DNA from: Butyricicoccus pullicaecorum DSM 23266
GTDB lineage: Bacteria > Bacillota > Clostridia > Oscillospirales > Butyricicoccaceae
Assembly (NCBI RefSeq): GCF_900167005.1
Contig: NZ_FUXW01000005.1
Span: forward strand, 62,001-126,000
Length of the DNA stretch: 64,000 nucleotides
Reading direction: 5' to 3'
Shown here one piece after another: positions 4,251 to 45,712 of this stretch. How positions within the stretch are numbered: the first letter of the stretch is position 1; the number at the start of each line of letters is the position of its first letter. A program made the translations under genes and the position numbers. Under the pieces are notes generated by a model. That model made no database searches and was not told the DNA's origin. It was given only the letters and a program-made list of their open reading frames with translations.

Positions 4251-4261
4251 AAAGCGTAATT

Positions 4262-4664
4262 AAAGCTTTCGCTCAAGCCTTTCTCGAACCTTGTGGAATT
4301 AGGAAAGGCCCCTGTGGGGCTTTTTCCCGCAAGGCTGTGGCCGACTTGTTCGGCCAAGGCCCTAACACGGGGGCACTGTTGCCCTGAGACGCTGTCCGCA
4401 GACAGCGGAATCTCTTTTTGATTTTCGCCTCTGCGAAAATCAACTAAAATGAAAAATAAAAGCGCGTCCGCAGACGCGCAATTCTCTGGAAAGACCGCCC
4501 CTTCGGACGGTCTTTCCTTTTTGTTTGTTTCAGTTGAAACCCGGGTCGGACACCGGGTTTCAAAAGGGGAGTTTCGGACTCTGCGGAGTCCGCCTCAGGG
4601 CTCTGCCCTGAGAACCTGCAAACCTTTGAAAAGGTTTGATCCAAACTTCAGTAGGGCTGCGGTG
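4262..4664. repeat. Convergent-junction hairpin repeat, copy A
   Basis: Mosaic palindromic element filling the gap between two converging genes and ending one base before the amidase stop codon. Internal hairpins in order: 4390-4407 (CGCTGTC arms), 4420-4441 (GATTTTCGC arms), 4462-4479 (GCGCGTC arms), 4488-4517 (GGAAAGACCG arms), 4534-4563 (TTGAAACCCGG arms), 4575-4592 (CGGACTC arms) and 4594-4612 (CTCAGGGC arms). The left end (4262-4288) matches the terminal repeat of copy F but is then broken by about 93 bp of unrelated sequence. The right end is of the AAACCTTTGAAAAGGTTTG type. Confidence 0.9.
4303..4325 (+). terminator. Terminator of the MATE gene
   Basis: GGCCCC/GGGGCT hairpin with a three-base loop followed by TTTTT, inside the segment that interrupts repeat copy A. 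A second hairpin (GGCCGA/TCGGCC, 4338-4354) follows. Confidence 0.65.
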
Positions 4665-11643: not shown

Positions 11644-11998
11644 TACCGCACCCATAATTGAAGTTTGGATCAAACCTTTTCAAAGGTTTGCGGGTTCTCA
11701 GGGCAGAGCCCTGAGTCGCGCTCCGCAGAGCGCGAAATCCCCTTTTTGATTTTCGCTTTTGCGAAAATCAACCAAAATAAAAAATAAAAGCGCATCCCGC
11801 AGGATGCGCAATTCTCTGGAAAGACCAACCGAAGGGTTGGTCTTTCCTTTTTTGTATGTTTAAATTGATTCCCGGGGCGGACACCGGGAATCAAAGGAGA
11901 TTCCGCTGTCTGCGGACAGCGGCTCAGGGCGCTGCCCTGAGAACCTGCGGCCTTTCGAGAAAGGCCGGCGAAAGCTTTATTTCGCCTGCGGGCGGGAA
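11644..11998. repeat. Convergent-junction hairpin repeat, copy B
   Basis: Same family and orientation as copy A. It begins with ACCGCACC and the TTTGG-type end (AAACCTTTTCAAAGGTTTG), then hairpins with CTCAGGGC arms, CGCGCTC arms, GATTTTCGC arms, GCGCATCC arms, GGAAAGACCAACC arms, GATTCCCGG arms and CGCTGTC arms, and closes with CTCAGGGC and GGCCTTTCGAGAAAGGCC. The two ends are of different subtypes, so the copy is mosaic. It fills the gap between the sulfatase stop and the dapL terminator. Confidence 0.9.
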
Positions 11999-31282: not shown

Positions 31283-31466
31283 CCCGCCCGTGGGCGAATT
31301 GAAGCTTTCGCTCAAGCCTTTCTCGAAAGGCTTGCGGGTTCGCAGGGCAGCGCCCTGCGTCGCCGTCCGCAGACGGCGAAATCCCCAATTGAAACCCGGT
31401 GTCCGTCCCGGGTTTCAATTTAAATAAACCCAACAAAAAGACCGTCCCTTCGGACGGTCTTTTCTT
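31283..31466. repeat. Convergent-junction hairpin repeat, copy C (short form)
   Basis: Half-length member starting two bases after the upstream stop. Order: CCCGCCC end, the GAAGCTTTCGCTCAAGCC terminal module, hairpin with CGCAGGGC/GCCCTGCG arms (changed on both sides relative to the CTCAGGGC arms elsewhere), CGCCGTC/GACGGCG, TTGAAACCCGG/CCGGGTTTCAA, and the terminator-like AAAAAGACCGTCC/GGACGGTCTTTT. It stops there, four bases before the ATPase stop codon. Confidence 0.9.
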
Positions 31467-31470
31467 ATTG

Positions 31471-33354
31471 TTATAGATTCTTCACAAACAGCGCACGAAT
31501 CGCATTCAGCACCGCCAGAATCATCACACCAACATCGGCAAAAATCGCAAGCCACATGTTGGCCAGACCCAGCGCGCCGAGCACCAGACAGATCAGCTTA
31601 ATGCCAATCGCAAACACAATGTTCTGATAGACAATGCGCAGACACTTGCGCGAAATCTTGACCGCCTTGACGATCTTGAGCGGGTCGTCGTCCATGAGTA
31701 CCACGTCTGCTGCCTCGATGGCCGCATCCGAACCCATCGCACCCATCGCAATGCCGATGTCCGCACGGGACAGTACGGGCGCATCGTTGATGCCGTCACC
31801 GACAAAGGCCAGCTTGCCGCCGGATGGCTTGTTTTGCAGCAGGGACTCGACCTTTTCCACCTTGTCTGCGGGCAGAAGCTCGCTGTATACCTCGTCAATG
31901 CCCAGCTCGTCGGCGACCTGACGGGCAACCGGGTCGATATCGCCGGTGAGCATAATGGTCTTTTGGATGCCCGCACGGTGCAGGTCGTGGATGGCCTGCT
32001 TGGAATGAGGCTTGATGACGTCGGAAATGACGATATGACCGGCATAGGCACCATTTACCGCCATGTGAATGATGGTGCCGACGTGATGGCAGGGAATGAA
32101 GTCGATGCCGAGCCGCTTCATCAGCTTGTCATTGCCTGCGGCGACTTCCATACCGTCTACCTTGGCGATCACACCGTTGCCGCTGATCTCCTGAATGTCG
32201 GATACCCGGCTGCGGTCGACCGGCTTGCCGTAGGCACGCTGCAGGCTGCGGCTGATGGGGTGAGAGGACGCACTCTCTGCGAGCGCAGCCAATTCGAGCA
32301 GTTTTTCGTCCTCGAGCTTGTTGTGATGGATGCCGCTGACCTCGAATACGCCCTGGGTGAGCGTGCCGGTCTTGTCAAACACAATGGCTTTGACCTGAGA
32401 CAGCGTTTCCAGATAGTTGGAACCCTTGATGAGCACACCGGCGTTGCTTGCACCGCCGATACCGGCAAAGAAGCTCAGCGGAATACTGATGACCAGCGCA
32501 CAGGGGCAGCTGATGACCAGGAAGGTGAGCGCACGGTACAGCCAGTCGCCCCAATCGGCGGGCAGGTCAAGCAGGAACATGCGCACCAGCGGGGGCAGAA
32601 TAAGCAGGGCAAGCGCACTGTAACAGACGGCGGGAGTGTAGACACGGGCGAAGCGGGAGATGAACGCCTCGGAACGCGACTTGCGCGAGCTGGCGTTCTC
32701 GACCAGATCGAGAATCTTGGATACGGTCGACTCACCGAACTCACGGGTCGTGCGAATCTTGAGCACGCCGCTGAGGTTGATGCAGCCGCTGATGATTTCA
32801 TCCCCGGGTGCGGTCTCGCGGGGCAGGCTCTCGCCGGTCAGGGCGCTGGTGTCCAGCGTGGACGAGCCCTCGACGATCACGCCGTCGATCGGGACTTTCT
32901 CACCCGGCTGCACGACGATGATCGTGCCGACCTCGACCTCGTCCGGGTCGACCTGCTCGAGTGCACCGTCCTGCTCGATGTTGGCGTAGTCCGGGCGGAT
33001 GTCCATGAGCTGGCTGATGTTGCGGCGGCTCTTGCCGACCGCGTAGCTCTGGAACCACTCACCGACCTGATAGAACAGCATAACGCCGATGGCCTCGGTG
33101 TAGTCGCCGCTCTGGGTCAGTCCGAGCACGATGGCGCCCACGGTGGCGACCGCCATCAGGAAGTTTTCGTCGAAGGGCTGACGGTTTTTGACGCCTTTTC
33201 CGGCTTTGATGAGGATATCATAGCCGATGATGGCGTAGGGAATCATGTACAGGACAAAGCGCAGAATGCCGCTTGCCGGGACAAAGTGCAGCACCACCAT
33301 GAGCACGGCGGCGATGAGGATGCGTATAAGCATCTTTTTTTGTTTTTTGTTCAT
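31471..33354 (-). CDS. Heavy-metal translocating P-type ATPase (Zn/Cd/Co type)
   Basis: 627-residue P1B ATPase exporting soft metals. Eight helices; metal site SCPCAL in helix 6 (about 288-293), phosphorylation DKTGTLTQG, SSHPIS, MLTGD and GDGINDAP are intact. Unlike most relatives it has no N-terminal HMA domain, starting directly with the first helix; an HMA protein is encoded separately just upstream. CPC with the ArsR/CadC-type regulator suggests Zn/Cd/Pb rather than Cu; inference. Confidence 0.93.
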   Translation of the reverse strand: MNKKQKKMLIRILIAAVLMVVLHFVPASGILRFVLYMIPYAIIGYDILIKAGKGVKNRQPFDENFLMAVATVGAIVLGLTQSGDYTEAIGVMLFYQVGEWFQSYAVGKSRRNISQLMDIRPDYANIEQDGALEQVDPDEVEVGTIIVVQPGEKVPIDGVIVEGSSTLDTSALTGESLPRETAPGDEIISGCINLSGVLKIRTTREFGESTVSKILDLVENASSRKSRSEAFISRFARVYTPAVCYSALALLILPPLVRMFLLDLPADWGDWLYRALTFLVISCPCALVISIPLSFFAGIGGASNAGVLIKGSNYLETLSQVKAIVFDKTGTLTQGVFEVSGIHHNKLEDEKLLELAALAESASSHPISRSLQRAYGKPVDRSRVSDIQEISGNGVIAKVDGMEVAAGNDKLMKRLGIDFIPCHHVGTIIHMAVNGAYAGHIVISDVIKPHSKQAIHDLHRAGIQKTIMLTGDIDPVARQVADELGIDEVYSELLPADKVEKVESLLQNKPSGGKLAFVGDGINDAPVLSRADIGIAMGAMGSDAAIEAADVVLMDDDPLKIVKAVKISRKCLRIVYQNIVFAIGIKLICLVLGALGLANMWLAIFADVGVMILAVLNAIRALFVKNL

Positions 33355-34277: not shown

Positions 34278-34642
34278 TAATCCCGCCCGCAGGCGACAAG
34301 CGGGTCCGGGCCTGCGGCCCGGCGCGGTCCAGCCGCGCAGGCTGGCCCGTCCAGGTGGAACCTGGTCGCGCTCCGCAGAGCGCGAAACTCCTTTTGATTC
34401 CCGGTGTCCGACCCGGGAATCAACCTAAACAAACAAAAGAAAAAGACCAACCGGAAGGTTGGTCTTTTTAAGAATTGCGCGACCTGCGGGTCGCGCTTTT
34501 TTGTTCTTTTTTAGTTGATTTTCGCAGGAGCGAAAATCAAAAAGGGGATTCCGGACTCTGCGGAGTCCGTCTCAGGGCTCTGCCCTGAGAACCCGCAAAC
34601 CTTTGAAAAGGTTTGATCCAAACTTCAATAGGGGTGCGGTGC
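34278..34642. repeat. Convergent-junction hairpin repeat, copy D
   Basis: Reverse orientation to A, B and F. Left end is a third subtype (CCCGCCCGC, then a hairpin CCAGGT/ACCTGG). It continues CGCGCTC/GAGCGCG, GATTCCCGG/CCGGGAATC, AAAAAGACCAACC/GGTTGGTCTTTTT, GCGCGACC/GGTCGCGC, GATTTTCGC/GCGAAAATC, CGGACTC/GAGTCCG, CTCAGGGC/GCCCTGAG and the AAACCTTTGAAAAGGTTTG end. Fills the ArsR-to-34648 convergent gap. Confidence 0.9.
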
Positions 34643-40961: not shown

Positions 40962-40969
40962 AGAGACGG

Positions 40970-41316
40970 AAGCTCGCCCGCAGGCGAGAACGGGATTCTC
41001 AAGGGACGAGTCCCTTGAGCCCGTCCAGGTGGAACCTGGTCGAGCCCGCAGGCTCGAAATACCCCTTTTGATTCCCGGTGTCCGACCCGGGAATCAACCC
41101 AAACAAACAAAAAAGGAAAGACCAACCGGATGGTTGGTCTTTCCAGAGATTGCGCACTCTGCGGAGTGCGCTTTTCTTTTTTATTTTGGTTGATTTTCGC
41201 TTTGCGAAAATCAAAAAGGGGGTTCCGCTCGCTGCGGCGAGCGGCTCAGGGCTCTGCCCTGAGAACCCGCAGCCTTTCGAGAAAGGCTGGCGAAAGCTTT
41301 CATTAGGGGTGCGGTG
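40970..41316. repeat. Convergent-junction hairpin repeat, copy E
   Basis: Same orientation as D. The third-type left end has an extra hairpin (CTCAAGGGAC/GTCCCTTGAG), then CCAGGT/ACCTGG, CGAGCC/GGCTCG, GATTCCCGG/CCGGGAATC, GGAAAGACCAACC/GGTTGGTCTTTCC, GCGCACTC/GAGTGCGC, GATTTTCGC/GCGAAAATC, CCGCTCG/CGAGCGG, CTCAGGGC/GCCCTGAG and GCCTTTCGAGAAAGGC. Ends AGGGGTGCGGTG, four bases before the next stop codon. Confidence 0.9.
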
Positions 41317-41320
41317 ATAA

Positions 41321-42728: not shown

Positions 42729-42784
42729 AAAACTGATTCGAGAGGTCTTTTGAAAAAGAGACAGAGAGAGGAGTTTTTTTGACT

Positions 42785-43897
42785 ATGGAAGCTTCAAAGG
42801 TATATTTTGCCGATTTCCGCACGACCTTGACCGAGAACCTGCAGCAGAAGCTGTGGAGACTGCTGGACAAGGCGGGAATGGGAACGATTGACTTTGATAA
42901 AAAGTACGCCGCGATCAAGATGCACTTTGGTGAGCCAGGCAATCTGGCGTTTCTGCGTCCGAACTGGGCAAAGACGGTTGCAGATTACGTCAAGGCACAC
43001 GGCGGCAAGCCCTTCCTGACCGACTGCAATACCCTGTACGTCGGCGGACGTAAGAACGCGCTCGATCATCTGGATTCGGCTTATCTCAACGGATTTTCGC
43101 CACTGTCCACCGGCTGCCATGTCATCATCGGTGACGGCCTGAAGGGTACGGATGAGGTTTACGTCCCGGTCGAGGGCGGTGAGTACATCAAGGAAGCTAA
43201 GATCGGCACGGCGGTGATGGATGCCGACGTATTTATCTCGCTGAGCCACTTCAAGGGTCACGAGAACACCGGTTTTGGCGGTGCGCTCAAGAATATCGGC
43301 ATGGGCTGTGGCTCGCGTGCTGGTAAGATGGAGATGCACAACGCAGGCAAGCCGCGCGTGCATGAAAAGAGATGCGTTGGATGCAGCATGTGTACCCGCG
43401 TGTGTGCGCATGGTGCCATCACCATCGCAGACCGCAAGGCGAGCATTGACCATAATAAGTGCGTCGGCTGCGGCCGCTGCATCGGCATGTGCCCGCAGGA
43501 TGCCATCGCGTGCGATTACGACGAGTCCAATATCGTACTCAACCGCAAGATTGCCGAGTACACCAAGGCGGTCGTTGATGGCCGTCCGTGCTTCCATATC
43601 TCGCTGGTTCTGGACGTTTCGCCCAACTGCGATTGCCATGCAGAAAATGATGTGCCGATCGTACCCAATGTCGGTATGTTCGCATCGTTCGACCCGGTTG
43701 CACTCGATCAGGCGTGCGCAGATGCGGTCAATGCAATGCCTGCAAACCCGCAGTCGGCACTGTTTGACGAGGGTGCAGAGCACGATCATCACGATCATTT
43801 CCATGCAGCACACCCGGAGACTAACTGGCAGAGTGCACTCGAGCACGCGGAAAAGCTGGGACTGGGTACCAGAACTTACGAACTGGTAAAGATCTAA
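42785..43897 (+). CDS. DUF362 protein with two 4Fe-4S clusters
   Basis: 370 residues: an N-terminal DUF362 domain (about 1-195; IKMHFGEPGN, FLTDCNTLYVGGR, SLSHFKGHENTGFGGALKN), a two-cluster ferredoxin insert (CVGCSMCTRVCAHG and CVGCGRCIGMCPQD, about 198-250), and the DUF362 C-terminus with a His-rich stretch (HDHHDHFHAAH). Likely an oxidoreductase or electron-transfer protein; no substrate known. The ATG at 42785 and a TTG two codons earlier both fit GAGAGGAG. Confidence 0.85.
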   Translation: MEASKVYFADFRTTLTENLQQKLWRLLDKAGMGTIDFDKKYAAIKMHFGEPGNLAFLRPNWAKTVADYVKAHGGKPFLTDCNTLYVGGRKNALDHLDSAYLNGFSPLSTGCHVIIGDGLKGTDEVYVPVEGGEYIKEAKIGTAVMDADVFISLSHFKGHENTGFGGALKNIGMGCGSRAGKMEMHNAGKPRVHEKRCVGCSMCTRVCAHGAITIADRKASIDHNKCVGCGRCIGMCPQDAIACDYDESNIVLNRKIAEYTKAVVDGRPCFHISLVLDVSPNCDCHAENDVPIVPNVGMFASFDPVALDQACADAVNAMPANPQSALFDEGAEHDHHDHFHAAHPETNWQSALEHAEKLGLGTRTYELVKI

Positions 43898-43903
43898 CAG
43901 AAA

Positions 43904-44262
43904 GCACCGCACCAAATATTGAAGCTTTCGCTCAAGCCTTTCTCGAAAGGCTTGCGGGTTCTCAGGGCAGAGCCCTGAGACGCGTCCCGCAGGACGCGGA
44001 ATCCCCTTTTTGATTTTCGCTTCTGCGAAAATCAACCAAAATAAAAAAGAAAAGCGCACTCCGCAGAGTGCGCAATCTCTGAAAAGACCGTCCGAAGGGA
44101 CGGTCTTTTCTTTTTTGTATGTTTCGATTGATTCCCGGGTCGGACACCGGGAATCAAAGGGGAGTTTCGCCCGTTGCGACGGGCGACTCAGGGCTCTGCC
44201 CTGAGAACCCGCAAGCCTTTCGAGAAAGGCTTGAGCGAAAGCTTCATTTCGCCTGCGGGCGG
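43904..44262. repeat. Convergent-junction hairpin repeat, copy F (type copy)
   Basis: Best-preserved member. Bases 43921-43979 and 44187-44245 are exact reverse complements (59 bp). Each arm itself contains two hairpins (AAGCCTTTCTCGAAAGGCTT and CTCAGGGC/GCCCTGAG). Between the arms: CGCGTCC/GGACGCG, GATTTTCGC/GCGAAAATC, GCGCACTC/GAGTGCGC, AAAAGACCGTCC/GGACGGTCTTTT, GATTCCCGG/CCGGGAATC and CGCCCGT/ACGGGCG. Outer flanks are CACCGCACC on the left and TTTCGCCTGCGGGCGGG on the right. Confidence 0.93.
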
Positions 44263-44269
44263 GTTGTCC

Positions 44270-45619
44270 TTACTCCTTCTTTTCCGTTACCTGATAAGCG
44301 GTGCGCGGCGTTGCGGGTTCATCGTGTGTGACGATATCGAAGTAATCCTCGTCCTGAATTTCCGGTCGACGGTGACGGATGACAGCGATAATGATTGCGT
44401 ACAATACGATAGCGACCAGACCACCGGAAAATCCATTATTATATAGATTCATACCTGCGACCGGGGAACCGGTATAGAGTACAACCGACGCATGGATAAA
44501 ACCAGCGAGCACGCCATACGGCCAGCCGAAATAGCCGCTGATGGGTGCGAGGGTGGTGCAGAACAGGCAGGCGAGCTGGACGGCGCTGTCCGCGAGCGAC
44601 CAGTGCATGACTACGCTGCCAAGCAGGACACCGAACATAACCGGGAACATGTTTGCCGGGTGTTTACCGAAGGCGGAAAAGCCCATGATGGTGAGGATAC
44701 CGCCGACGGTGGGACCGTTGAGGTCGCCGCCGATGGCGAGGATGAGTGCCAAACCGATCAGACCGTTGATACCGGCATTGACCAGCGTGGGTGCGGGACC
44801 AAACATGCGCAGATAATCGCTGGGAGCGCGTCCGCTGGTGCGCAGCAGACGGCGATAGGTCGAGAGCACAGCCGCCGGGCGCTGACCGCACAGCAGCAGG
44901 CCGGACAGGATGAGCACGGCGCACAGGACGACGAGCAGAACGGTGAAGGGCAGGGTGCAGCCGGTGGCCCAGCGGTACTGGGTGGTCGGGGTCGCACCGA
45001 GTGAGCTGATGAGCGGCACGACCAGGAAGGCGACCAGACCGCAGGCAAAGCCGACATTATAAAGGTTCATGCCGTTTTGTACTTTATAAGTATAGGCCGA
45101 CAGGGCGGGCAGGATAAAGCCGATAATCATACCGGCGAGGATGCCGGTCGGCAGGGTACCCCAGCCGTTGTCGAGCACAAAGTAGCTGACGACTGGAGAC
45201 AGCGCGGTTGCCATCAGACCGGTGGGTGCGTACTTGGAAAAGGGCTCGTGACGGCTCTTGGCGTACAGCCATGCGCCGAGCAGGATGGGCCAGATGTTGA
45301 GGAAATTTTTTCCGAACAGCGAAAAACCGGACATCAGACCGATGACAACCATCGTGATACCGTTGTAGGGTACGCGGGCAAAATGCAGAATGAGGATACT
45401 GATGGCCGTGACCAGCGCGGCATTGACCAGCGCGGGGCCGGGGCCTGCGACGAGCACATAGTCGGTGATGAGCGCGGTTTCAGTCAAAATGATCTTGGAC
45501 AGACCGGCGGGCAGCTGAGAGAGCGGGCCGAGCAGCAGACCGGCAACCAGAAGCAGGGCGGTGTAGCCCCAGAGGAAGAACGGCATCCGCTCATAGCGTG
45601 CATGTGCGTGTGAATCCAT
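44270..45619 (-). CDS. DUF1576 membrane protein
   Basis: 449-residue polytopic protein, about twelve helices in two repeated halves: both contain GPGPALVNAA/GPAPTLVNAG, NGLIGLAL/MSGFSLFGKN and AGFIHASVVLYTGSPVAGMNLYNNGFSGG. This matches the DUF1576 family (PF07613) of uncharacterised Firmicute transporters. ATG at 45619 after GGAGACCC; the longer in-frame start lacks a ribosome-binding site. Confidence 0.82.
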   Translation of the reverse strand: MDSHAHARYERMPFFLWGYTALLLVAGLLLGPLSQLPAGLSKIILTETALITDYVLVAGPGPALVNAALVTAISILILHFARVPYNGITMVVIGLMSGFSLFGKNFLNIWPILLGAWLYAKSRHEPFSKYAPTGLMATALSPVVSYFVLDNGWGTLPTGILAGMIIGFILPALSAYTYKVQNGMNLYNVGFACGLVAFLVVPLISSLGATPTTQYRWATGCTLPFTVLLVVLCAVLILSGLLLCGQRPAAVLSTYRRLLRTSGRAPSDYLRMFGPAPTLVNAGINGLIGLALILAIGGDLNGPTVGGILTIMGFSAFGKHPANMFPVMFGVLLGSVVMHWSLADSAVQLACLFCTTLAPISGYFGWPYGVLAGFIHASVVLYTGSPVAGMNLYNNGFSGGLVAIVLYAIIIAVIRHRRPEIQDEDYFDIVTHDEPATPRTAYQVTEKKE

Positions 45620-45712
45620 GAAAGGGTCTCCTTTTGCGAAAAAATGCGGGGAAAATGCCCCGCTTTCTTGCATTATTGTAACAAATACGAAAAGGCACGT
45701 CAATAGCGGACG

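Follow-up and report, generated by a model that had tools for sequence, protein, structure and literature searches.

We asked whether the hairpin-built repeat at 43904-44263 of a 64,000-nucleotide stretch of the Butyricicoccus pullicaecorum DSM 23266 genome (hereafter the window) is a mobile element bounded by inverted repeats or a part of the genes that flank it. A sequence-only reading had described exact 59-bp arms, six further hairpins between them and strong folding, both local and overall. This description holds: the reverse complementarity of the arms is exact and in fact extends over 60 bp (43920-43979 and 44187-44246), exactly six hairpins (M3, M4, M5, M6, M4' and M3') lie between them, and the MFE of this type copy is −251.5 kcal/mol compared with −120.4 ± 6.0 for shuffled sequences (z −21.9). 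What had been taken for a single element is actually two 3'-end units, belonging to two convergent genes and placed face-to-face over two back-to-back terminators, on both strands; the part of that reading which stands is that of a repeated, hairpin-built intergenic family.

The plus-strand gene on the 5' side (42779-43897), assigned by motif to a DUF362-like 4Fe-4S protein, has its stop ~10 nt ahead of the profile start of the left unit. This unit opens with an edge module of the GCACCGCACC type (43904-43921), and its M1-M2-M3 portion (43922-44006, plus strand) is matched by the covariance model with 105 bits. M1 (CAAGCCTTT-CTCG-AAAGGCTTG) occupies positions 43933-43954, M2 (TCTCAGGGC-AGA-GCCCTGAGA) 43960-43980 and M3 (CGCGTCC-CGCA-GGACGCG) 43981-43998, followed by the left M4 hairpin at 44010-44035, which carries the GATTTTCGC word in its M5-side form. 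In the centre, M5 (44054-44073, minus strand) and a minus-strand T-run make up the terminator-like signal of the minus-strand gene, and M6 (44081-44116, plus strand) with its T-run makes up that of the plus-strand gene. The right unit lies on the minus strand, with an M4 hairpin of the GATTCCCGG word (44128-44157), an M3-M2-M1 portion (44160-44244, covariance model match of 104.8 bits) and an edge module of the CCCGCCCGCAGGCGA type (44249-44263); it is adjoined by the stop of the convergent gene (44270-45703, minus strand), a predicted membrane protein.

The five other copies reported earlier, at 4262, 11644, 31283, 34278 and 40970, were all recovered, and no copies beyond these six were found in the 64-kb window. 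Copy 2 (4253-4660) has a nested hairpin insertion in its left M1 loop, copy 3 (11644-11996) contains two units and two terminators, and copy 4 (31283-31475, plus strand) one unit and a terminator. The left arm of copy 5 (34278-34640) is a type II unit, with GTCCGGGCC.. and CGTCCAGGTGGAACCTGG hairpins, and that of copy 6 (40968-41320) is different, type-II-like; this second arm type has other outer hairpins, M3 and M4 being unchanged (34278, 40970). The terminator arrangement of the type copy is repeated, in either orientation, at 40970 and 11644. Over the genome the copy number goes far beyond six: 130 unit matches were obtained with a profile of one arm and ~93 clusters were counted in the ~660 kb examined, and exact M2+M3 cores occur 128 times genome-wide, compared with 0 for a reversed-pattern control, the census being based on stretches around known copies together with genome-wide searches. 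Unit density differs more than 10-fold among G000 contigs (C7, C12-C16, C19 and C24 versus C18 and C20), from ~0.3 per kb on C24 to ~0.01 per kb on C18 by exact pattern, and several contigs of this genome terminate within an element.

The real unit is a directional block of ~100 nt that begins just past a stop codon and comprises, from 5' to 3', an edge module (CACCGCACC.. or CCCGCCCGCAGGCGA..), M1, M2, M3 and M4; M2 and M3 sit within a three-way junction closed by GCGGG and (A)TCCCC. The units are either solitary or arranged in inward-pointing pairs (plus then minus), their profile matches being 145-170 bp apart in most pairs, and the centre between two units consists of an A-run, M5, M6 and a T-run. 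The GC hairpin followed by a T-run that characterizes intrinsic terminators is present on both strands, and a terminator-like signal on each strand, with the A-run before M5 and the T-run after M6, was observed in 25 of the 28 five-hairpin elements with M6 found.

Among the units lying within 25 nt of a neighbouring gene, 76 follow a same-strand stop and 1 is beside a start. With a simple, crude gene caller, the 5' neighbour of the unit was stop-facing in 95 cases and start-facing in 21, compared with 151 stops and 271 starts in gaps without an element. An element is present in 44 of 84 convergent gaps, 29 of 394 tandem gaps and 4 of 78 divergent gaps; as the sampled contigs were chosen for holding copies, these fractions do not stand for genome averages. 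Six of ~120 units are located after an existing terminator. In other Oscillospirales families, 32 of 47 units lie within 150 nt after a same-strand stop, compared with 30% of random positions and 40% for the antisense control, and the link to 3' ends is therefore weaker there.

The hairpin stems covary strongly. Over 26 diverse units, drawn from five genomes, both sides vary in 15 of the 25 pairs and 98.6% of the cells are paired; the double-change cells number 114, whereas shuffling gave 31 and sliding the partners gave no more than 9. The sense strand shows an excess of wobble pairs, with 55 G-U versus 20 A-C, and 16 versus 6 when distinct stems with wobble are counted (p = 0.026), a modest asymmetry that comes mostly from one helix.

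The stems form a small vocabulary whose words are exchanged whole, an arrangement that is unusual and seems undescribed. There are ~15 exact stem words for M3, mainly two for M2, ~nine for M1 and six for M4, and 103 of 116 units show distinct word combinations. The longest exact match between the arms is 9-28 bp in 27 of the 28 two-arm copies, so that terminal inverted repeats are no trait of the family and are long and perfect in one copy only; the type copy is this sole outlier by accident, because M1 and M2 happen to be common to both of its arms. Within an element, no M3/M5 or M4 word is repeated (0 of 154 and 0 of 48 pairs). A strict rule that no word occurs twice was rejected, as the M4 words proved to be position-specific after the elements were oriented. 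When a positional word preference was allowed, M4 repeats numbered 0 where 1.8 were expected, and M3/M5 repeats 0 where 3.4 were expected; this preference therefore explains much of the no-repeat effect and leaves a modest residual. Word repetition does occur in a relative, G002 C53 (L039), in which a unit block is tandemly duplicated with identical hairpin stems.

Word swapping is observed between orthologous elements of G001 and G000. In one G001 element, one arm has been retained, C-G having become T-A in M3 as a compensatory change, and the other arm has been replaced by one of the second type. In another, M1 alone is replaced, besides two point differences (in M2 and in the M3 loop), the flanks being otherwise identical. 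A third contains a ~53-nt hairpin within the M3 loop, where G000 is empty. This ~53-nt repeat, starting CCCGTAGGTCACTATCC, is placed exactly in M3 or M5 loops and was found at six places in the examined G000 sequence (C12:40064, C12:78713, C13:47936, C19:44255, C24:23203 and C32:15705) and in G001 C95 (L037), G000 C29 being the empty site for the latter copy. Four units (window 4253-4412; G000 C12:39694, C13:48180 and C19:30432) have another nested hairpin insertion, CGAACCTTG..AAAAGGCCCCTGTGGGG..GGCCGACTTGTTCGGCC, in their M1 loop.

Sister genomes, in which the sequence-only reading had proposed to look for empty sites, have orthologous sites without units. At the 4262 locus, the orthologous gaps of G001 and G004 hold plain terminators only, at the 40970 locus the G004 gap is ~50 bp long with one plain terminator, and the G004 gene end equivalent to 11644 also has a plain terminator. 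Since the relatives terminate these genes in its absence, the element is not required. The type locus was unusable for this comparison, the gene order being different at the orthologue. In G004 C33 (L160), one element joins flanks that lie at two separate G000 elements (C32:46548 and C12:5176); the elements therefore mark a rearrangement breakpoint between the species. The search of related genomes with a covariance model, likewise proposed, gave matches in 61 of 394 Oscillospirales genomes, which represent 37 of 169 genera, the matches per genome in those 61 often being at least the number listed; outside this order only four genomes of a class-wide sample matched. In G054 (L120, L121, L166-L168), from another genus of the family, there were 386 first-look candidates, as well as units lacking the terminator centre of G000, some having hairpins in tandem repeat.

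We then compared the element with known systems. BIMEs and REP sequences of E. coli and Pseudomonas are mosaics of palindromic modules (PMC2817692, PMC3733652), and REP dimers form in some species only from unlike members (PMC3733652). The element is likewise an extragenic, many-copy mosaic of palindromic modules, and shares with them a 3' intergenic position, species-specific expansions, facing pairs and compensatory stem variants, so that the earlier choice of BIMEs as the closest concept, without a match to any named family, is upheld. It differs by its units of ~100 nt, which comprise several hairpins and a three-way junction, its built-in intrinsic terminators, its occurrence mainly in Oscillospirales and the lack of a Y1/RAYT gene: a search for the Y1 (RAYT) transposase PF01797 gave 0 matches in G000 and was positive in 5 of 14 control genomes. 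In the aligned units neither a GTAG nor a CGTC tag was seen; families with these tags are reported from other phyla (PMC3733652), and neither RepRanger nor the GTAG/CGTC surveys report the repeat for Oscillospirales. Bidirectional intrinsic terminators also place a GC hairpin with an A-run and a T-run between convergent genes, as at the orthologous sites, whereas the present element has a pair of them arranged back to back, with a conserved four-hairpin unit ahead of each. BOX and other Gram-positive repeats are modular and intergenic, with fixed A/B/C modules in place of the swapped hairpin words seen here. Rfam 15 gave 0 matches in the window at the gathering score and, in the element, only weak sub-threshold matches, and no description of the repeat was found in open-licence papers.

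Like MITEs, the element is short, repeated, non-coding and hairpin-forming, and the 60-bp perfect arms of the type copy would fit a MITE moved through terminal inverted repeats by an IS transposase. The probability of this origin is nevertheless close to nil: the long arms are unique to the type copy, single-unit copies are common, and the element ends are alternative modules with no fixed TIR. Target-site duplications, which had been suggested as a check, gave no signal (4.39 versus 4.21 ± 0.17 when permuted, with somewhat fuzzy edges), and no partner transposase was found, either neighbouring the copies, as noted earlier, or in the genome-wide search for the Y1 family. The element is thus neither a MITE nor a RAYT-linked REP, since features by which each is defined were looked for and not found.

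A selfish, non-autonomous BIME-like mosaic, whose post-stop position reflects tolerated insertion and whose spread is self-serving, would account for the high copy number, for the very unequal matches in sister species (11 in G001 and 99 in G000), for the elements missing from orthologous sites and for the copies after an existing terminator. We consider it unlikely, given the strict orientation, the tight distance to the stop and the avoidance of divergent and start-side gaps, together with the strong structural covariation, the lack of both a Y1 transposase and a TSD signal, and positions that are conserved between species while the words change. More improbable still is a DNA-level site between convergent genes (for supercoiling, gyrase or a nucleoid protein), at which the hairpins would be extruded as cruciforms, along the lines proposed for BIMEs in E. 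coli. The occupancy of convergent gaps, the near-perfect hairpins on both strands and the word variants unrepeated within an element agree with such a site, but the polarity of the unit with respect to its gene, like the excess of G-U, indicates sense RNA, no conserved protein-binding sequence was identified, and the no-repeat excess is small once positional preference is considered.

On the sequence evidence, the element is probably a modular structured 3' UTR combined with a terminator. The stop codon is followed by the four-hairpin unit (M1, the three-way junction of M2 and M3, and M4) and then by a predicted intrinsic terminator, and between convergent genes two such units face each other across a common centre of back-to-back terminators, M6 for one strand and M5 for the other. 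This reading is supported by the placement of units just past stops, the terminator-like signals on both strands, the covariation, the sense-strand wobble excess, the plain terminators in orthologous convergent gaps and the swaps of one hairpin or one arm; the units after an existing terminator, the 21 start-facing neighbours, the modest size of the wobble asymmetry, the weaker link to stops in other families and the relatives that do without the element count against it. With facing units and shared terminators, each message, once transcribed, would therefore end in a stable hairpin chain and a U-run. The likely job of the element would be to terminate transcription on either strand and to give the 3' ends of convergent messages protection and insulation. 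Its hairpins act as words that can stand in for one another, and their replacement as whole units would take place through gene conversion or template switching from one dispersed copy to another. In a further reading, which we hold to be rather doubtful, a family of structured 3' ends that spans the order draws whole hairpins from a genome-specific vocabulary, and a dedicated process that acts on hairpin tips swaps them among dispersed loci; the nested hairpins insert exactly in the M1, M3 and M5 loops, and the words differ between the two arms of each element. We favour a BIME-like mosaic that became, or carries, a double terminator and a structured 3' UTR, with its function and mode of exchange being those we infer above.

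The Oscillospirales rank among the major anaerobes of the gut, and the 3' ends of their mRNAs have been little studied. If the 3'-UTR and terminator reading is true, the element, found across the order and at more than half of the convergent gene pairs in that part of one genome which was sampled and is rich in copies, would represent a large layer of control over termination and mRNA that is as yet unannotated. The copies also offer a natural record of whole-hairpin swaps in which pairing is preserved, through which the long-standing question of how BIME-like mosaics evolve becomes directly testable, here without RAYT.
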